From the NCBI RefSeq assembly GCF_014203735.1, contig NZ_JACHJQ010000004.1, positions 496,001 through 560,000 on the forward strand: DNA of 64,000 bases, given 5' to 3'. A program made the position numbers and the translations under genes. The notes under the pieces were generated by a model that made no database searches, was not told the origin of the DNA, and saw only the letters and a program-made list of their open reading frames with translations. This document shows positions 35,097-44,640 of this stretch, piece after piece; the stretch's first letter is position 1; each line of letters opens with the position of its first letter. The DNA is from Actinophytocola algeriensis. Its GTDB lineage: Bacteria > Actinomycetota > Actinomycetes > Mycobacteriales > Pseudonocardiaceae.

Positions 35097-35669
35097 TCAG
35101 AACGCGCCGGCCGGAACCTTTTCCTGGATGAGCTCCATCTCGCCGCGGGCCTTCCTGCCGTTCGCCCACAGCTGGTTCACCCGGGACGACTCGGTGGCGT
35201 TCGGGTAGGCGTTCGTGCACGACGGGCCGGGGCCGCCGCCGGACATCAGCTCGGAGCAGGGGCCCGAGTAGTTGTCCGGCAGGCCGAGCGCGTGGCCGGT
35301 CTCGTGCGCGGTGACCCGAACCTGGTAGTACTGGCCCATCTGCGTGTAGTCGAAGAAGATGTAGCCGTTGCCGTGACCGTCGGTGTAGGCGTACGAGCCG
35401 GACGGGTCGTTGCCCTCGTAGTAGTCGAGCGTGGCGGCCGAGGAGTTCTCGACCAGCCGCACGTTGGACACCGACGCGTTCCAGATCGCCGCGCCCTCCC
35501 GGATCTGCGACGCGTACGTCGGTGCACCGGAGACGTCGTAGTAGACCGTGACGGCCGCGGGGGTCACGTCCTGGGGCGTGACCGGTGCGGCCGCGGCCTG
35601 ACCCGCGGTCAGTGGAGCGGCGACCAACGCGGCCCCGACAGCCGCGGTGAGGAAGGACTTCCTGATCAT
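35097..35669 (-). CDS. Secreted snapalysin-like zinc metalloprotease (family M7)
   Basis: 190 residues from ATG 35669, with GAGGTG upstream. The signal peptide is 1-28 (AGQAAAAPV). The mature protein begins its fold at [28 protein letters not shown]. The zinc site is H122-E-x-x-H126-x-x-G-x-x-D132 ([11 protein letters not shown]), with Asp as the third ligand, the mark of snapalysins. Two Cys around CSELMSGG can form the family disulphide. It degrades extracellular protein. Streptomyces snapalysins normally sit next to a LysR activator; none is present here, the neighbour being a divergent calcium-binding protein. Confidence 0.9.
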
Positions 35670-35948
35670 GAAAGCACCTCGCCAGTGAGTGTTCTCTGCA
35701 GGGTCGGCCCACGAAATGGGCCTCGCGAGGACGTTAGAAAGCGCATTCATGATCACGGCACCGACTTTCGTAGGTAGCCGGAGTTGGGAAATTGCCAGGC
35801 ATTTCGGCGTGTTGACGGGGTTCACCCGAGGTGGTGGGATGGATTACCCGAATGCCGGGAAACGCCGACGGAAAGTAGTCGCCGGCACGGCATCCGCCAC
35901 TCGCTCGGTCAATTGTCCCGACTGTCCGTTGTGGGCAAAGCTTTTTCC
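35670..35948. other. 279-bp divergent intergenic region, lower GC
   Basis: This gap between the protease and the EF-hand gene is visibly richer in A/T than its surroundings, for example near 35740-35850. It should hold two promoters. GTGTTGACGG near 35808 could be a -35 element for the EF-hand gene. No clear palindrome or open frame with coding character is seen. Confidence 0.4.
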
Positions 35949-36709: not shown

Positions 36710-39700
36710 CTAGCCGGTGGCCGTGCGCGTGGCGATCAGGTCGAGCGTCTGGCGCTGGGTTGCGCCGTTGACGGTCACCGCGAGCGTGATCGTCGACGGC
36801 CGCAGCGCGGTCAGCTCACCGGTCGCCGGGTCGAAGTTCGCCGTGTGGTAGCGCTTCGCGTCCCGCTGGGGTCCGATGTGGACGTTCGGCGACGCGGACC
36901 ACCTGGCGGACACCGGGTAGGCGACCGGGACGGTCCGGTCCGCCTGCGTGATGCTCGCGGTGACCACGGTGGACCGCCCGACGGGCAGCGAGTCCGGCGC
37001 GTCGACGGTCAGCGTGTCGACGTGCGGGCGGACCTCGGCGGCCAGCCAGTCGCCTGGCGCACCGCGGTCGTCGACGCCCCACAGGGACCACCCCGTGAAC
37101 CCGCCTTCGGACGGCAAGGTCGAGGGGTTCTTGCCGGAGTTGCCGTTGACGAAGTACGGCACGCCGTCGACGTGGCTCGCGTGGAACGTCCCGACGTGGG
37201 CGCCGATGAATGCGGTGCCCTTGCCGGTCCGGTCCTGGAAGGCCGACAGCCAGGACTCGATGGTCGCGGCCTCCTTGCGGTCCGACAGCTCGCTCGCGCG
37301 GGCGGGCGTCGGGTCGCGCGGCGGCACGTGCTCGACGAGGACCACCGACTTCACGCGCCGGTCCGTGGCGGCCTTCTGCAGCTCGGTGCGCAGGCGGCCG
37401 AGCTGGGTCCAGTCGCTCGCCCGGAGGTTGATGCCGGACGTGTCCATGGTGATGAACCGGGTGCCCTTGTGGTCGATCACCTGCTGGGTGTCGCCGAACA
37501 CCGCGCGGAAGTTGTCGAGGGAGTTGTTGCCGCGCTCGTGGTTGCCCGGCACGTAGTGGAACGGGAGCGTGCCGCCCAGCTCCTCGTCGAGGATCTTCCT
37601 GGCGAGCGCGAAGTCCGCCGCCGACGCCTCGTCGACGAGGTCGCCGTTGATGATCAGGAAGTCCGGCTTCGCGGCCTTGATCTCCCGCAGCGTGCGGCGC
37701 GCGTTGCGGACGATGTCGCTGTCCGGGTCGCGGGCCACGAACTGCGCGTCGGACATGACGGCGAACCGCCAGTCACCGCCCGCCGTCGAGTGGATCACCG
37801 GGTCCTCGACGACCGGCTGCGGTGGCACGTCCAGCGTCGGCGGTACGAGCGCGGTGATCCCGTCGATCACGAGGTCGCCGTGGTAGCTGTTGCTCGCGAC
37901 GGTCTCCGCCGCGTAGAAACGCCGCAGCGTCAACGGGTACGTGGTGCCCGCGGGCACCTGGAACTCGAGCTGCCGCCAGCCGGTGTGGGTGAGGTAGCCG
38001 GCGCGGAAGGCGGGTAGCAGCGTGCCGTTGCCGTCCCAGACCTGCATGCTCGCCCACTCGCCCTTGCCGGTCGAGTTCACCCACAGCCGGATCGCCTTGG
38101 GCTGGCCGGGGAGCACGAGACCCGGCGGCGCGACGGCGCCACCGGTGCGGGTGCCGGTGCTCTGGGTGAAGTCGTAGGTGAGGCGCAGGCCCTGGCCGTC
38201 GTGGCCGGTCGCGGGGGCGACGGCACCGGTGGCGCGCTCGCCGAGGAACTTCCAGCCCGCGGTGTCGGTGAAGTCGGCGACGGACACCTCGGTGAGGCCG
38301 ACGGTCACCGGCAGGACCGACTTCTTGCCGCGCACGTCGACGGTGACCAGCGCGGAACCGGTCGGCTGCTCGGCCTGCACGGTGTACTGGCCGTCGGCGT
38401 TCGGCGTGATGTCGAGGAGGTTCCGGTCGTAGGTGAGCGTGACGTCCCGGGGCTCGACGGGCGCGCTGGTGCCGTCGTCGTCGAAGCCGAGGACGCCGAA
38501 CGTGGTCGTCTCGTCCGGGTTGGACAGTGCGATCTGTTCCTTGGTGGGCGCGGTGCGCGCGACCTCGCCGATGACGGTGAGGGTGGTCTCGCCGCGTGCG
38601 CCGCGGTCCTGTGCGACCACGGTGGCCGCACCGGGCCTGCGGCCGGTGAACACGCCGTCCCGGACGGTGCCGTTGTCGGTGCGCCAGCGCGGGTCGCCCG
38701 CGGCGGGGCCGTAGGTCTCGTCGTACCCGGCGGCGGTCAGCGTGCGGGACAGGCCGGACAGGACGCGCTCGGGGTGGCTCGGCGCGACGGTGGAGGCGCC
38801 GGACGCGCGGGTCGGGTCGAGCTTGGTCTCGACCCAGAACGCCTTGAGCCGCCCGCTTCCCTCGGGCGCGAACAGGCCGAGCCCGTTGGGCACGTTGCGT
38901 TCGGCGCCGTCGGACGGCCGGTTCTCCAGCTGCGCGGTGGTGGCACCCGGCTCACGCACGACGATCGTGGTGGAGCCGCCGCCGTCGAGGTTGACCGCGC
39001 TCCACGCGCCGAGCTCGACCATCATGCCGGCCAGCTCGTCGAGCCCGAGCCCGTCGGCGAACGCGGGCTGGCGGCCGTCGGCGGACAGGAGGAACATCTT
39101 CCGCCCGTCCCGGGAGAACCCGAGCGCGGTCCGCGGTGCGGCGGGGGTGTTGTTGCCCTGGCTGGCTTTCTGGGCGACACCGTCGACCACGAGCAGCTGG
39201 CGGCCGTTGATGGCGGCGTGGATCTTCTGGTCGTCCGCGGTGCGCGCCCGGTAGTCGATGCTGACCGGGTCACCTGGCTCGAGTTGTGTCAACGTGGCGG
39301 CCGCGGCGTCCCGCCCGACGAGGATCATGGTGCCGGCGGGGATCGCGCCCTCACCGGCTGCGTCCCGGACGGCGACGACGGTGTTGTCCCTGACCTCGAC
39401 CTCGGCGACCGCGGTGGCGCCCTGGGTGGCACGGCAGCGGCAGTAGGTGCCCCAGAGCGGGGTGAACGCCTCGATGCCGCCGGCCCTGAGGGTCGGCTTG
39501 TTGACCCCGTCGAGGCCGAGGTCGCCGTCGGGCGTGGTGATGGTGCCCTCGAAGAACACCTCGCCGATGTCCCCGACACCACGCTCGGTGAAGATCGCCG
39601 AGGACTGCCGCCAGGTGGGTTCGGAGTCCGGCGACTGGATCAGCTCACCGTCCTTGATCCCCACCCCCAGTGCGGCGTTCGAGTTGTTGATGTCGAAGAA

Positions 39701-40102
39701 GTCCCCGTTCACGGCGGCGACCGCCCCGGCCCGGTTGGCGGTGGCGCTCAGCGGTTCGCCCTTGGCGACCTGCCCGGGGAAGAGGTAGTCGACGGTCGTG
39801 CCCTTGGTGAGGTCGACGGTGAGGCTGTCGCCCTGCAGCCAGGTGGGCGCGCCGGTGTAGGCGTCGGGCCCGTAACGGTCGAAGGAGCGGAGCGTCACGC
39901 CCGGCGCGACGGGCCGCGTCCGGGAGGCGGTCTCGATCCGGTCCTCCGGCGCGGCCTTGGCCTGACGCGCGGAGGCGAGGAAGTCGTCGCCGGGGAAGGC
40001 GGCGGCATCACTGGTGGCGGCGTCCGTATCAGCGGCGGCGGGCGCCGCGAGCGCCACGGCCGAAGCGGCGGCGGCAAGGAGGGAGAGCAATCTCTTCGAC
40101 AC
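36710..40102 (-). CDS. Secreted phosphodiester glycosidase (NAGPA-like) fused to metallophosphoesterase
   Basis: 1130 residues from GTG 40102 (VSKRLLSLLAAAASAVALAAPAAADT, a clear signal peptide). Residues about 80-330 are an NAGPA-type phosphodiester glycosidase domain: AVNGDFFDINNSNAALGVGI, then LGAWSAVNLDGGGSTTIVV. Ig-like and jelly-roll segments follow. From about 775 there is a calcineurin-like phosphoesterase with MSDAQF (D-x-Q for the usual D-x-H), NGDLVD, GNHERG and VEHVPPRD, but the GxH motif is replaced by AHVGTFHASH. It probably degrades sugar-phosphodiester polymers such as teichoic acid outside the cell. Weak ribosome site. Confidence 0.8.
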   Translation of the reverse strand: MSKRLLSLLAAAASAVALAAPAAADTDAATSDAAAFPGDDFLASARQAKAAPEDRIETASRTRPVAPGVTLRSFDRYGPDAYTGAPTWLQGDSLTVDLTKGTTVDYLFPGQVAKGEPLSATANRAGAVAAVNGDFFDINNSNAALGVGIKDGELIQSPDSEPTWRQSSAIFTERGVGDIGEVFFEGTITTPDGDLGLDGVNKPTLRAGGIEAFTPLWGTYCRCRATQGATAVAEVEVRDNTVVAVRDAAGEGAIPAGTMILVGRDAAAATLTQLEPGDPVSIDYRARTADDQKIHAAINGRQLLVVDGVAQKASQGNNTPAAPRTALGFSRDGRKMFLLSADGRQPAFADGLGLDELAGMMVELGAWSAVNLDGGGSTTIVVREPGATTAQLENRPSDGAERNVPNGLGLFAPEGSGRLKAFWVETKLDPTRASGASTVAPSHPERVLSGLSRTLTAAGYDETYGPAAGDPRWRTDNGTVRDGVFTGRRPGAATVVAQDRGARGETTLTVIGEVARTAPTKEQIALSNPDETTTFGVLGFDDDGTSAPVEPRDVTLTYDRNLLDITPNADGQYTVQAEQPTGSALVTVDVRGKKSVLPVTVGLTEVSVADFTDTAGWKFLGERATGAVAPATGHDGQGLRLTYDFTQSTGTRTGGAVAPPGLVLPGQPKAIRLWVNSTGKGEWASMQVWDGNGTLLPAFRAGYLTHTGWRQLEFQVPAGTTYPLTLRRFYAAETVASNSYHGDLVIDGITALVPPTLDVPPQPVVEDPVIHSTAGGDWRFAVMSDAQFVARDPDSDIVRNARRTLREIKAAKPDFLIINGDLVDEASAADFALARKILDEELGGTLPFHYVPGNHERGNNSLDNFRAVFGDTQQVIDHKGTRFITMDTSGINLRASDWTQLGRLRTELQKAATDRRVKSVVLVEHVPPRDPTPARASELSDRKEAATIESWLSAFQDRTGKGTAFIGAHVGTFHASHVDGVPYFVNGNSGKNPSTLPSEGGFTGWSLWGVDDRGAPGDWLAAEVRPHVDTLTVDAPDSLPVGRSTVVTASITQADRTVPVAYPVSARWSASPNVHIGPQRDAKRYHTANFDPATGELTALRPSTITLAVTVNGATQRQTLDLIATRTATG

Positions 40103-40306
40103 GAACAGAGTCTGCCGCCGAGGTCGAAGATTTACCAGACCTGAAGATGACCGGAAAGAAAATTCCGGATGGCCGAGGCGGAGGCCGGTGGAGCGGACCG
40201 GGCACGCTCCGTGGGCCGCGTTCCGGTCCGCGGTCGAGGCCGAAGGATTGTAGGGCGATCGGATACACTCGCAGACGTTGCTGGTCAGGGACTTTGGGAG
40301 CGCGTC

Positions 40307-40978
40307 GTGGATGCCGAGCTGGACACCGATCGTCTGCTGATCGACCGGCCCAGCACCGTGGAGCTGCTCGCCGACGCGTTGCGCGAGCGGATCATCAAAG
40401 GTGTCTACCGGCCCGGTGAACGGCTCGTCGAGAAGGCGATCGGGGACTCGTTCAAGGTGTCCCGCAACTCGCTGCGGGAAGCGTTCCGGCTCCTGTCCCA
40501 CGAGCGGCTCCTCGTCCACGAGCTGAACCGCGGCGTCTTCGTCCGCATGCTGTCCGTCGCCGACGTGAGCGACGTGTACCGGGTGCGCAAGCTCGTCGAG
40601 TGCACCGCCGTCCGCTCGCTCAAAGGGCGGCCGCCGCAGGTCGATGACATGGTCGCGGCCGTGCGGGCCGGGGACGCCGCGATGAAGGAGCAGGACTGGC
40701 GTGCGCTCGGCACCGCGAACATGCTGTTCCACCAGGCGGTCGCGTCGCTCTCCGACAGTCCGCGGATCGACGAGCTGATGCGCAACACCCTCGCCGAGCT
40801 GCGGCTCGTCTTCCACACCATGGCCGACCCGCGCCGCTTCCACGAGCCCTATCTCGAGCGCAACAAGGAGATCCTCACCGCCATCGAGGCCGGGGACGGG
40901 GCCCGCGCCGAGCGGCTCCTCCTCAAGTACCTGGACGACTCCGAGCACCAGATCGTCGAGGCGTACCGCAGCGCCTGA
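40307..40978 (+). CDS. GntR family (FadR/FCD type) transcriptional regulator
   Basis: 223 residues from GTG 40307, with GGGAG 7 bp upstream. N-terminal winged HTH: VELLADALRERIIKGVYRPGERLVEKAIGDSFKVSRNSLREAFRLLSHERLLVHELNRGVFVRML. The FCD domain follows (VYRVRKLVECTAVRSL, then LFHQAVASLSDSPRIDELMRNTLAELRLVFHTM, RNKEILTAIEAGDGARAERLLLKYL) and would bind a carboxylate effector through its His/Asp metal site. Convergent with, and overlapping by 56 bp, the 5-oxoprolinase gene; FCD regulators commonly control carboxylate or amino-acid catabolism, so it may regulate that module. Confidence 0.88.
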   Translation: MDAELDTDRLLIDRPSTVELLADALRERIIKGVYRPGERLVEKAIGDSFKVSRNSLREAFRLLSHERLLVHELNRGVFVRMLSVADVSDVYRVRKLVECTAVRSLKGRPPQVDDMVAAVRAGDAAMKEQDWRALGTANMLFHQAVASLSDSPRIDELMRNTLAELRLVFHTMADPRRFHEPYLERNKEILTAIEAGDGARAERLLLKYLDDSEHQIVEAYRSA

Positions 40979-42464
40979 ACCGCACCGCCTGGCCCGGCCG
41001 CGCTTGCGCCAGCACCGGCAGGTCCGCCTCGACCACGACCCCGATCACCGGGTAACCGCCCGTCACCGGGTGGTCGGCGAGGAACACGATCGGTTTGCCA
41101 CCGGAGGGAACCTGCACCGAACCGGTCACCATGCCCTCGCTCGGCAGCTCACCGTCCCGTGCCCGCGCCAGCGCCGGGCCGTCGAGCCGCACCCCGACAC
41201 GGTTGCTGTCCGCCGTCACCGTGTAGGACGCGGTGATCAGCGTCGTCAGCGCGTCCTCGGTGAACCAGTCGTCCCGGGGGCCCGGTACCACCCGCACCAC
41301 CAGCTCGTCCGCCGACGGTGCCGGGACCGGCGCCACCTCCACCGAGGGCGGCGGCCCGCTGTGGGCGCCACCGATCGGGAGCACCGCCCCCGCCGCCAGT
41401 GGCGGCGGCCCCAGCCCGGACAGCACATCCGTCGAGCGGGAACCCAGCGTCGCCTCGACCGCGATGCCGCCCCGCACCGCCACATACGCGCGCAGCCCCA
41501 CCGAAGCCGGGCCCACCACGAGCTGCTGACCGGCACGTACCGTGAACGGCGCGTTCATGCCCTCGCCCCGGCCGTCGCGCGACACGGCGCACAGCGCGCC
41601 CGTCACCGCCACCCGCGCCGTCTCCCGGAACGCGAGCGTCGCACCGAAGGACAGCTCCACCACCGCCGCTTCCCGCGCGTTGCCCACCAGCCGGTTCGCG
41701 AGCGCCGCCGACGCCGCGTCCGCCGCACCCGAGGTGCCGACGCCGAGCGAGGCCCAGCCGGGCCGGCCGGTGTCCTGAACGGTGCCCGACGGTCCACAGC
41801 GGATCACCTCGATCCCGTGCTCGACAACCGGAACCGGAGCCGACCGGTCCGGAACCTCGGGCAGCGACGCCACCGCCTCGAACCGCACCCGCGTCCCCGG
41901 CCGCAACATCGCGGGCGGCTCCCGCGTCGTGTCCCACAGCGGCGCGGTCGTGTGGCCCAGCAGGTGCCACCCGCCCGGTGACGGCCGCGGGTACACCCCC
42001 GTGAACTCTCCCGCGACCGCCACCGCCCCCGCGGGCACGCGGGTGCGCGGCGACTCCCGCCTCGGCAACCGCAACCGGTCGTCGAGCCCCGTCAGGTACC
42101 CGAAACCGGGCGCGAAACCCGTGAACGCCACCGTGTACTCGGGTCCCGTGTGGACGGACACGACCTCGTCCGCCGACATCCCGGTCGCCGTCGCCACGTC
42201 GGCGAGGTCCTCGCCGTCGTAGCGCACGGGGATCGTCACCGGCTCCCCGGACTCGGCCGCCGAGGCGACCGGTGTCACGTCCGACAGCCGCGACACCACC
42301 GCGTCGAAGTCCACATCGGACTCGTAGCGCACCAGCAGCGTCCGCGCCGCCGGCACCAGGTCCACCACCCCGGGCAGGGGCCGGGCGGTGAGCGCGGCGT
42401 ACCAGCCGAGCACCTCGTCGGTCTCGATCAGCAACGCCGACTCACCGCACCGGCGGACCTTCAC
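40923..42464 (-). CDS. 5-oxoprolinase subunits B and C fused (PxpB-PxpC)
   Basis: 513 residues. Residues 1-205 are the PxpB/KipI half (TVAFTGFAPGFGYLTGLDDRLRLPRRESPRTRVPAGAVAVAGEFTGVYPRPSPGGWHLLGHT). From about 220 comes the PxpC/KipA biotin-carboxylase-like half (IEVIRCGPSGTVQDTGRPGWASLGVGTSGAADAASAALANRLVGN, then VRLDGPALARA and PSGGKPIVFLADHPVTGGYPVIG). In E. coli these are separate genes; with PxpA they form the ATP-dependent 5-oxoprolinase that opens 5-oxoproline to glutamate. The ATG overlaps the PxpA stop as ATGA. The last dozen residues (TPRRSGARSRPGT) are low-complexity and run into the convergent GntR gene. Confidence 0.92.
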   Translation of the reverse strand: MKVRRCGESALLIETDEVLGWYAALTARPLPGVVDLVPAARTLLVRYESDVDFDAVVSRLSDVTPVASAAESGEPVTIPVRYDGEDLADVATATGMSADEVVSVHTGPEYTVAFTGFAPGFGYLTGLDDRLRLPRRESPRTRVPAGAVAVAGEFTGVYPRPSPGGWHLLGHTTAPLWDTTREPPAMLRPGTRVRFEAVASLPEVPDRSAPVPVVEHGIEVIRCGPSGTVQDTGRPGWASLGVGTSGAADAASAALANRLVGNAREAAVVELSFGATLAFRETARVAVTGALCAVSRDGRGEGMNAPFTVRAGQQLVVGPASVGLRAYVAVRGGIAVEATLGSRSTDVLSGLGPPPLAAGAVLPIGGAHSGPPPSVEVAPVPAPSADELVVRVVPGPRDDWFTEDALTTLITASYTVTADSNRVGVRLDGPALARARDGELPSEGMVTGSVQVPSGGKPIVFLADHPVTGGYPVIGVVVEADLPVLAQARPGQAVRFRRCGTPRRSGARSRPGT

Positions 42465-43219
42465 CGGAAGCTCTCCACCGTGACCCCCGCCGCGGTCATG
42501 CCGTCCCGCACCGCGCGCACCAGCTCCAGCGCACCCGGTGTGTCACTGTGGACACACACCGACCGCGCGGGCATCGCCAGCACGGACCCGTCGACCGCCA
42601 CCACCGTGCCGTCGGTCGCGAACCGCACCGCGCGCCGCGCGACCACGTCCGGATCGTGCAGCACCGCACCGGGTTCGCGCCGCGACACCAGGCGGCCCTC
42701 CGGCGTGTACGCCCGGTCGGCGAACGCCTCCGCCACCGTCTCGAGCCCGGCCGCCTCGGCGAGCGCGAGCCACCGCGACCCCGGCATGCCGAGCACGGCG
42801 AGCGACGCGTCGAACGTCGTCACCGCCTCGACCACGGCCGCCGCCTGCTCCTCGTGCGTCGCGATCGCGTTGTACAGCGCGCCGTGCGGCTTCACGTACG
42901 CCAACCGTCCACCCGCGACCTCGGCCATGCCCCGCAGCGCGGCCATCTGGTACAGCAGGTCGTCGACCAGCTCGGCGGGCGGCATGTCGATGAAGCGCCT
43001 GCCGAACCCGGCCAGGTCGCGGTAGCCGACCTGCGCGCCGATCGACACGCCGTGCGCCACCGCGGTCACGCACGCGCGCCGGATCGTGCCGGGATCGCCC
43101 GCGTGGAAACCGCACGCGATGTTCGCGCTCGACACCACGGCGAGCAGCGCGTCGTCGTCGGCGATCCGCCACGCGCCGAACCCCTCGGCGATGTCGACGT
43201 TCAGGTCGATGACTGTCAC
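42461..43219 (-). CDS. pxpA: 5-oxoprolinase subunit A (LamB/YcsF family)
   Basis: 252 residues from GTG 43219, which overlaps the transporter stop as GTGA. VTVIDLNVDIAEGFGAWRIADDDALLAVVSSANIACGFHAGDP is the N-terminal LamB/YcsF signature. GAQVGYRDLAGFGRR and YVKPHGALYNAI complete the family motifs. The usual DLNCDxGE is DLNVDIAE here, with Val for Cys. PxpA is the hydrolase-like partner that, with the PxpBC fusion, cleaves 5-oxoproline (pyroglutamate), a damage product of glutamine, using ATP. Start is fixed by the overlap and the signature. Confidence 0.92.
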   Translation of the reverse strand: MTVIDLNVDIAEGFGAWRIADDDALLAVVSSANIACGFHAGDPGTIRRACVTAVAHGVSIGAQVGYRDLAGFGRRFIDMPPAELVDDLLYQMAALRGMAEVAGGRLAYVKPHGALYNAIATHEEQAAAVVEAVTTFDASLAVLGMPGSRWLALAEAAGLETVAEAFADRAYTPEGRLVSRREPGAVLHDPDVVARRAVRFATDGTVVAVDGSVLAMPARSVCVHSDTPGALELVRAVRDGMTAAGVTVESFR

Positions 43220-44535
43220 GACAGGACTTTCTCCTCGGCGGCGGGCGCGACCTCGTCCTCCTCGGCCGGGTCGCGGGCGAGCCACAAGCCAACCACGGTC
43301 AGCACGGCGGTGAGCCCCAGGTACACGCCCAGGATCCACCACGACTCGAACCAGTTCAGCAGGGCCGCGAGGATCAGCGGGGCGGGCGCGCCGCCGATGA
43401 CCCCCGCGAGGGTGTAGGCGAGCGAGCTGCCCGTGTACCGCAGCCGCGGCGAGAACTGCTCGGTGATCAGCGCGGCCTGCGGCCCGTACAGGGCGGCGTG
43501 GATGACCAGCGCGACCACGATGCCGAGTGCGAGCAGGACGAACGAGCCGCCGCTGACCATCGGGAAGAACACGAACGGCCAGATGGCCGCGGCGATCGTG
43601 CCGTACAGGTACAGCTTCCGCCGGTTCACGCGGTCGGACAGGGCGCCGAACGCGGGCATCAGCCCGAGCTGCACCGCCGAGCCGATCATGACCGCGGCCG
43701 AGCCCTGCGCCCGCGACATGTCCAGCTCGTTCACCATGTAGGTCAGGACGAACACGGTGAACAGCGAGTACATGACGTCCGGGCACACGCGCACGAGAAT
43801 CCCCGCGACCAGCGCCCGCCGCTCGGTCCGCGCGACCTCCGACACCGGCGCGCTCGGCTGTTCCTCCCGCTGGGCGATCGCCTTGAACACCGGCGTCTCC
43901 TCCAGCCGCAGCCGGATCCACAGGCCGAACCCGACGAGCACCGCCGACAGCAGGAACGCGACCCGCCAGCCCCACGACTCGAACGCGGCCTCGGTCAGCA
44001 GCGCGCCGAGCAGCGCGATCACGCCGTTGGCGAGCAGGGTGCCCGCCGGTGGGCCGATCTGCGCCGCCGACGCCCACAGCCCGCGCCGTTTCGGATCGCC
44101 GTACTCGCTGGACAGCAGCACCGCGCCGCCCCACTCGCCGCCGACCGCGACGCCCTGTGCGAACCGCAGCACCACCAGCAGGATCGCCGCCGTGCCGCCG
44201 ATCGTCGCGTACGTGGGCAGCAGGCCGATGAGGAACGTCGCGACCCCCGCCAGCATCAGCGTGTGGACCAGGACCTTCTTGCGGCCGATGACGTCGCCGA
44301 GCCTGCCGAACACGATGCCGCCGAGCGGGCGGGCGAGGTAGCCGATGGCGTAGGTCGAGAAGGCCGCCATGGTGCCCGCGAGGTCGTCGCCGGAAGGGAA
44401 GAACAGGTCACCGAACAGGGTCGCGGCGGCGACCGAGTAGGCGGCGAAGTCGTAGTACTCCAACGCTGTTCCGGACAGGCTCGCGGTGTAGGCCCGGCGC
44501 AGTGCTTTCTTGTCGACTCCCTGGTGTGTGGTCAT
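43216..44535 (-). CDS. MFS transporter, metabolite:H+ symporter (MHS) family
   Basis: 439 residues from ATG 44535; ATG codons a little upstream are also in frame and no strong ribosome site decides. MHS motifs: SGTALEYYDFAAYSVAAATLFGDLFFP, FGRLGDVIGRKKVLVHTL between helices 2 and 3, and RFAQGVAVGGEWGGAVLLSSEY in helix 4. The second half repeats at FGALSDRVNRRKLYLYG. These carriers import organic acids, proline/betaine or shikimate with protons. Coupled to pxpA by a GTGA overlap, so the likely substrate is 5-oxoproline or a related acid. Probably transcribed from the gap shared with the IclR-like gene. Confidence 0.88.
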   Translation of the reverse strand: MTTHQGVDKKALRRAYTASLSGTALEYYDFAAYSVAAATLFGDLFFPSGDDLAGTMAAFSTYAIGYLARPLGGIVFGRLGDVIGRKKVLVHTLMLAGVATFLIGLLPTYATIGGTAAILLVVLRFAQGVAVGGEWGGAVLLSSEYGDPKRRGLWASAAQIGPPAGTLLANGVIALLGALLTEAAFESWGWRVAFLLSAVLVGFGLWIRLRLEETPVFKAIAQREEQPSAPVSEVARTERRALVAGILVRVCPDVMYSLFTVFVLTYMVNELDMSRAQGSAAVMIGSAVQLGLMPAFGALSDRVNRRKLYLYGTIAAAIWPFVFFPMVSGGSFVLLALGIVVALVIHAALYGPQAALITEQFSPRLRYTGSSLAYTLAGVIGGAPAPLILAALLNWFESWWILGVYLGLTAVLTVVGLWLARDPAEEDEVAPAAEEKVLS

Positions 44536-44640
44536 CGTGCACATCCGTTCGGCAGGGATCCAGGTCACACTGAGGGTAGAAAATTGTCCCACGATCCTGC
44601 AATACTACGTTTTCAATCTGGAACGGAAGGGGCGACGCGC

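Follow-up and report, generated by a model that had tools for sequence, protein, structure and literature searches.

The window, a stretch of 64,000 nucleotides from Actinophytocola algeriensis (contig NZ_JACHJQ010000004.1, positions 496,001 to 560,000; genome of 9.7 Mb), holds on its minus strand a single open frame, starting with GTG, for a protein of 1130 residues in which a phosphodiester glycosidase (NAGPA) half and a calcineurin-like phosphoesterase half are joined in one chain (Table 1). Comparison with its relatives indicates that this is a widespread protein whose architecture is known and whose active site is a well-defined variant, the second histidine of the last metal motif of the phosphoesterase having been replaced by glycine. 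The fusion had been proposed in an earlier, sequence-only reading of this DNA, and it is upheld by both domains scoring above their Pfam cut-offs and by both folds being recovered in models. NAGPA (PF09992) matches residues 233-411 with 130.7 bits against a cut-off of 25 (E = 8.2e-38), and Metallophos matches residues 779-934 with 37.8 bits against a cut-off of 21.5 (E = 3.5e-9). In a sequence search of the Protein Data Bank (PDB) the first half matched 3ohg, 6ozd and uncovering enzymes, and a profile of the phosphoesterase half gave GpdQ-type matches at E = 1e-05. The fusion protein is probably secreted, as had also been claimed, judging by eye from its N terminus.

Metal motifs of the phosphoesterase half

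We compared 108 distinct sequences, the query and 107 others, which were obtained from 113 matches after removal of the window's own two copies and of identical rows. Asp-785, Gln-787, Asp-821, Asn-854, His-855, Glu-856, His-925 and His-969 are invariant in all 108. With respect to the motif of the class III cyclic-nucleotide phosphodiesterases, D-GD-GNH[E/D]-H-GHxH in the available text of PMC8366450, the elements D785, G820-D821, G853-E856 and H925 are present and again invariant in 108 of 108, and GHxH is replaced, reading A968-H-V-G971 in the query. At position 971, where GHxH has its second His, 107 of these sequences have Gly and one (L005) has His. On the motifs, the altered GHxH argues against assigning the protein to the class III family. 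Both changes that the sequence-only reading had picked out, D-x-Q at 785-787 and the irregular A-H-V-G at 968-971, are seen in the alignment.

With the addition of 20 divergent members picked from a host-family search that covered 297 genomes, the set grew to 128 rows, of which 120 have the DxQ/HxG type, two DxH/HxH (L153 and L154) and one DxQ/HxH (L005), the remaining five (L155-L159) being free of ligands. Among the 123 aligned members in which metal motifs remain, 121 carry D-x-Q, and Asp-785, Asp-821, Asn-854, His-855, His-925 and His-969 are invariant in all of these 123 ligand-bearing members. The 120 members with DxQ/HxG also share a short loop, with Gly-987 and Asn-988 in every one and Asn-986 in 118, none of which occurs in the three members that keep the second His. 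A link between the loss of this His and the [NS]-G-N loop is suggestive only, as few independent events lie behind it. In a tree calculated without the phosphoesterase half from 48 of the 128 rows (<82% identical), the DxQ/HxG type (44 of the 48) falls on one side of a single branch and needs one change, with none of 500 shuffles giving a value as low; this branch has a support of 10 and long branches meet there, and the order of ligand loss is not fixed by the tree.

The ligand-free copies come from one genus (g256), which is represented by seven genomes in the 297-genome search, five of which were read. Their phosphoesterase domain is recognizable and short, with every ligand replaced or gone, as judged by eye over a machine alignment that is loose in this region. 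Five genomes of this genus, when searched, gave 13-16 Metallophos matches each; the two long ones that were read resemble, by eye, polynucleotide kinase-phosphatases rather than further copies of the fusion.

By analogy with ADPRibase-Mn, the D-x-Q motif is no sign of inactivity, because in that enzyme its Gln sits on metal 1; motif I of the human protein is D-[VI]-Q, the authors' docking model has the carbonyl of Gln27 as a ligand of metal 1, and Asn110 coordinates metal 2 (PMC4334965, in the part available). The change at the second His of GHxH is, from the alignment, a real loss. ADPRibase-Mn keeps a His at this second place of motif V. In metallophosphoesterase structures the second His of GHxH serves metal 1 and the first serves metal 2, and on this mapping both changed positions (787 and 971) would fall on metal 1, with metal 2 left whole. 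Since the changes would be confined to metal 1, and since a calcineurin-like enzyme with one metal exists in MslH, we read the phosphoesterase half of the window protein as modified, possibly one-metal, rather than dead, a term that fits the five ligand-free copies. Of the two changes named in the sequence-only reading, the second His of GHxH is truly lost, but D-x-Q, which ADPRibase-Mn and almost all of the family share, gives no support for a dead half. Its suggestion that one half may only bind could suit the five members of one genus without ligands; in the window protein the six invariant residues are all in place and speak against it. By sequence, it is not the case that both predicted sites of the window protein lack metal ligands.

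Domain layout and predicted structure

An AlphaFold2 model of the full-length protein, for which 85 of the 108 aligned sequences were used, reached a mean predicted local distance difference test (pLDDT) score of 88.0 and a predicted template modeling (pTM) score of 0.82, and a model of the phosphoesterase half with all 108 members reached 88.6 and 0.88, respectively. The order of folds in the full-length model is NAGPA, two β-sandwiches, a jelly roll resembling a carbohydrate-binding module (CBM), the phosphoesterase and a last β-sandwich. Each half superposes on solved enzymes when the whole model is compared using VIA, the NAGPA region on 6ozd (Z 32.9, root mean square deviation (rmsd) 2.8, 347 residues aligned), 3ohg (Z 30.0, rmsd 2.6, 251 aligned) and the uncovering enzyme 6pku_B (Z 25.5, rmsd 2.5, 227 aligned), and the phosphoesterase region on GpdQ 2zo9 (Z 24.5, rmsd 2.5, 226 aligned) and Rv0805 3ib7 (Z 23.1, rmsd 4.3, 251 aligned). 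Residues 602-763 of the model align with FlaA1 9cyn (Z 18.3, rmsd 4.4, 160 aligned), and the CBM11 matches found by Foldseek, 1v0a and 6r3m, probably belong to this jelly roll. The Ig-like modules that the sequence-only reading had placed between the halves are borne out in part: two β-sandwiches stand there, which appear Ig-like from their secondary structure, but the jelly roll lies there too, and no Ig family of Pfam matches anywhere in the 1130 residues.

Table 1. Features of the fusion gene and its upstream region, with positions in the window
Feature	Position	Strand	Evidence
Whole open reading frame, 1130 residues plus stop, GTG start	36710..40102	-	Open frame and homologues
Probable Sec signal peptide, residues 1-25	40028..40102	-	Putative, judged by eye; pLDDT <50 for residues 1-49
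NAGPA phosphodiester glycosidase fold, residues 52-416	38855..39949	-	Pfam; superposition on 6ozd, 3ohg and 6pku
β-Sandwich module 1, Ig/BIG-like, residues about 420-512	38567..38845	-	Almost all strand in model; no Pfam Ig match
β-Sandwich module 2, residues about 513-602	38297..38566	-	Almost all strand in model; no Pfam match
Jelly roll, CBM-like, residues 604-753	37844..38293	-	Superposition on FlaA1; CBM11 matches placed here by inference
Calcineurin-like phosphoesterase fold, residues 775-1027	37022..37780	-	Pfam; superposition on GpdQ and Rv0805; motif counts
Phosphoesterase motifs D785-x-Q787, G820-D821, G853-N854-H855-E856, H925, H969-V-G971	in 37022..37780	-	Motif counts
C-terminal β-sandwich, residues about 1030-1124	36731..37015	-	Secondary structure of model
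Upstream inverted repeat CCGGAATTTTCTTTCCGG, which belongs to a family of similar upstream elements	40151..40168	-	
-35-like hexamer TGGTAA (TTGAAA in several relatives)	40132..40137	-	Pattern written after viewing upstream regions
-10-like hexamer CAGACT, 6 bases 5' of the GTG start	40109..40114	-	Inference, as in leaderless transcripts

Relation to known systems

A fusion of NAGPA with a phosphoesterase is already known and is not new, because PMC11488536 (2024), in the text available, mentions NAGPA as a possible fusion partner of the secreted calcineurin-like phosphoesterases in the ShfP radiation; other secreted NAGPA fusions occur in spore-forming Bacillota according to the accessible part of PMC12419801 (2025). 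ShfP (YvnB) of Bacillus subtilis is itself secreted and multi-domain, with a calcineurin-like domain and Ig-like modules, but it differs in its lamin-tail domain and in having seven Ig domains, and the available portion of PMC11488536 describes no NAGPA in it. The window protein has a calcineurin-like domain with β-sandwich and jelly-roll modules and may thus have an architecture of the ShfP type, the Ig identity being read from secondary structure only and secretion by eye from the N terminus. When the active-site motifs of ShfP were mutated, the protein complemented B. subtilis only in part or not at all (PMC11488536; preprint PMC11188070, both as available in part), and H1114 and H1116 of ShfP, mutated in that work as active-site residues, correspond by motif, the sequences being unaligned, to the pair whose second His the clade of the window protein has lost.

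The uncovering enzyme (6pku), BACOVA_00430 (3ohg), BPSS2145 (6ozd) and Slr0280 (5h3k) have the NAGPA / DUF2233 fold in common with the first half, and motifs of the types R-T, D-G and N-L-D-G-G-G-S are shared in most of the alignments. Their chains, however, are of 285-610 residues and match in the NAGPA region only, and none is described with a phosphoesterase half. GpdQ and Rv0805, both class III phosphodiesterases, are the closest solved folds to the second half, from which they differ by an identity of 16-24% and by the second His of GHxH that is missing in the clade of the window protein. ADPRibase-Mn resembles the second half in the D-x-Q of motif I and in its fold (2nxf, Z 19.2, rmsd 3.0, 221 aligned), but its substrates, in the sources as available, are ADP-ribose and CDP-alcohols. 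A clade-wide variant of metal 1 with H-to-G and NGN was not found in the literature on phosphodiester glycosidases, bacterial NAGPA / DUF2233, ADPRibase-Mn and metallophosphoesterase pseudoenzymes, on which this statement rests, and the literature search gave no paper naming a phosphodiester glycosidase and a metallophosphoesterase together.

Distribution of the family

This is a conserved and widespread actinobacterial family and not a chance fusion, because a near full-length homologue is present in 114 of the 297 host-family genomes (counted by eye, own genome included) and at 80 loci in a collection of genome contigs. In the host family 124 of the 297 genomes match at E ≤ 1e-60, the match being partial or split in 10 of them (G402, G414, G452, G482, G504, G521, G537, G552, G553 and G624). 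One internal stop is marked in four of the 114 (G411, G456, G538 and G662), and the frame of G456 proved open over the match when translated. Five of the six genomes of the genus have a homologue. The contig collection contains 403 stretches encoding a relative, from which the 80 that span nearly the whole query were kept; these lie in Actinophytocola, Actinopolymorpha, Nocardiopsis, Nonomuraea, Micromonospora and others, and at least four are, by score, the same sequences as in the 297-genome set. The loci of Actinophytocola oryzae and A. gossypii score the same as two genomes of the source genus, in agreement with a host in Actinophytocola. Across a phylum-wide set some match at E ≤ 0.001 was obtained in 185 of 396 genomes; among the matches listed, best first, most cover a single half, and apart from the own genome only G171 and G051 match over nearly the whole length.

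A copy on a Streptomyces clavuligerus plasmid is annotated "phosphodiester glycosidase family protein", and an unannotated faecal contig titled "Bacteriophage sp." (L176, MT835602.1) encodes a near full-length homologue with 36.6% identity over 94%; both again have D-x-Q with H-x-G. This contig, 72% G + C in the stretch examined, is perhaps bacterial DNA within a phage collection. A record titled Rhodococcus rhodnii (L122) has a copy equal in length and score to that of a Pseudonocardiaceae genome (L039), so its title may be wrong. The source genome encodes a second NAGPA-domain protein (G000:C7:198337-198828) in an open frame of 524 residues.

Proposed function and alternatives

We predict that the protein is secreted and, at the cell surface or outside the cell, acts as a phosphodiesterase that attacks a sugar-phosphate polymer in two steps, a prediction that we regard as evenly balanced, with a teichoic acid or similar sugar-phosphate polymer as a plausible, putative substrate. 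After export by Sec, suggested by the N terminus, the jelly roll and β-sandwiches would, to judge from their folds, hold the enzyme on surface carbohydrate. The NAGPA half, in which Asn-132, Asp-134, Asp-137, Arg-324, Asp-342, Arg-344, Asn-371, Asp-373, Gly-374-Gly-376 and Ser-377 are invariant in all 120 members of the main clade, would split a sugar-1-phosphate diester at its glycosidic bond, which is the reaction of the family, leaving a phosphomonoester, and the phosphoesterase half would next hydrolyze that phosphomonoester or a neighboring diester. On the mapping given above, the metal-2 site (Asp-821, Asn-854, His-925 and His-969) would be intact, and the metal-1 site would be rebuilt from Asp-785, Gln-787 and Asp-821 without the second His of motif V, the co-occurring N986-G-N988 being a candidate replacement at this metal. 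Candidate substrates are teichoic acid, poly-glycosyl-1-phosphate or another phosphoglycan. Tentatively, and with considerable doubt, we propose more specifically that the clade has rebuilt a two-metal phosphoesterase into a metal-2-only or Asn-supported site, through the change of the second motif-V His to Gly and the new [NS]-G-N loop, which would work in sequence with the glycosidase to strip glycosyl-1-phosphate polymers, the one fused family containing a natural series from a full through a modified to a dead metal site.

Several observations weigh against this proposal. By motif and without alignment, the lost His is one of the two residues (H1114 and H1116, in the ShfP text as available) that impaired ShfP when both were replaced. 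Outside the main clade even the NAGPA motifs vary: in the ligand-free L155-L159 Arg-324 is Glu or Asp and Asn-371 is Val or Ile, the other tallied positions being kept, and L153 and L154, with a canonical phosphoesterase, have Ser at 344 and Met at 371. His-974 was rejected as a general replacement ligand, as it is His in 107 of the 120 members but Asp, Asn, Ser, Phe or Gly in 13. Finally, among 76 loci and the window, no neighboring gene held at a fixed place across distant genera names a substrate.

The same changes could also mean that, as a pseudo-enzyme, the phosphoesterase half binds phosphoglycan and serves solely to position an active NAGPA half. The loss of the second motif-V His in 120 of the 128 members, the shortened domain without any ligand in five members of one genus and the graded series of motif types across the 128 rows all speak for such a course, but six catalytic and metal residues kept in 123 of 123 are unexpected for a mere binding module, and we consider this explanation unlikely. 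Were the half instead to keep one metal and carry out different chemistry, it would resemble MslH, a calcineurin-like fold with one metal that epimerizes lasso peptides (PMC10406935, as available); that the changed positions both map to metal 1, on the assignment given above, and leave metal 2 untouched agrees with this, whereas MslH has its own ligand set of Glu44, Asn87, His259 and His261. The comparison is by description only, and this chemistry seems to us improbable.

We attach equally little weight to an extracellular enzyme that scavenges phosphate and is induced by phosphate starvation. In its favor, phosphoesters are the substrates of both domain families, teichoic acid is degraded by PhoD of B. 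subtilis (PMC11488536, available part), and the best PHO-box score is at least 10 of 14 in 55 of 108 upstream regions, compared with ∼19 in base-shuffled sequence. Many of the high scores, however, come on our reading from close relatives or from another conserved upstream element that resembles the PHO-box unit, and the best score in the window is 8 of 14, which is common in shuffled sequence and leaves a PHO box upstream of the window gene unsupported; in other genera the gene may have such a role.

Upstream region and neighboring genes

In the window TGGTAA is followed after 17 bases by CAGACT and after a further 6 bases by GTG, a layout that would support the GTG at 40102 as the start of a leaderless message. 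The pattern TTT[TC]C[TC]TT[TC], which was chosen after viewing the sequences, is found in 52 of the 108 upstream regions, which are related and not independent, where base-shuffled sequence would give ∼0.3, both figures being summed over the groups. It occurs in 4 of 5 regions of the same genus, 1 of 3 from Actinopolymorpha, 21 of 30 from Nonomuraea, 9 of 9 from other Streptosporangiaceae and 17 of 26 from Micromonospora, and in none from Nocardiopsis (0/7), other Pseudonocardiaceae (0/25), Virgisporangium (0/1) and others (0/2). At 14 of 18 loci inspected, a -35/-10 pair follows 25-26 bases on, with ATG or GTG as a candidate start 5-8 bases after the -10; three of the remaining loci are without the element, and one is without such a pair.

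A scan of the own genome found the element once exactly and once with two mismatches (control, 0). Eight genomes of Nonomuraea and related genera gave nine matches at ≤1 mismatch, two of them in one genome (reversed-pattern control, 1), and by coordinates one element in each lies just upstream of the fusion gene. In six Micromonospora genomes there were seven matches at ≤2 mismatches in five genomes and none in the other. Because it is nearly single-copy per genome at these mismatch limits, the element looks like a candidate gene-specific control site. On these scans a regulon of the element was rejected, and no support was found for a MurR/RpiR regulon.

A regulator of the FCD/GntR type (40169-40978, ends of the open frame) is divergent from the fusion gene, and adjoining it on the minus strand (40923-44592) is a 5-oxoprolinase-like set, of carboxyltransferase subunits that we presume to be pxpBC-like and LamB/YcsF, with a major facilitator superfamily transporter. 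A gene for a snapalysin-type M7 metalloprotease (35097-35825, minus strand) lies on the other side of the fusion gene, as does that for an EF-hand protein. We clustered neighboring open frames of at least 110 codons that passed a codon-composition filter, which can miss genes, within 8 kb, where the sequence reached that far, at the 76 loci and the window, and examined the 14 clusters with the most genera and the window's own. Loci of Micromonospora have neighbors at fixed places in common, as do those of Nonomuraea and Thermoactinospora taken together; between more distant genera the few common clusters sit at differing places and strands, and a conserved operon was rejected. Of the neighbors in the window, three cluster with open frames elsewhere; for two of them the strand or side differs, and for the third both agree, in one Nocardiopsis locus. 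Since none is fixed beside the gene across distant genera, the neighbors do not name a substrate.

Implications

The family holds a canonical, a modified and a ligand-free phosphoesterase at orthologous positions, beside a glycosidase for related bonds, and so makes it tractable to test the extent to which a two-metal site can be eroded before catalysis stops. To our knowledge, few enzymes are known that degrade the sugar-phosphate wall polymers of actinomycetes, and the fusion protein may be one that acts on them.

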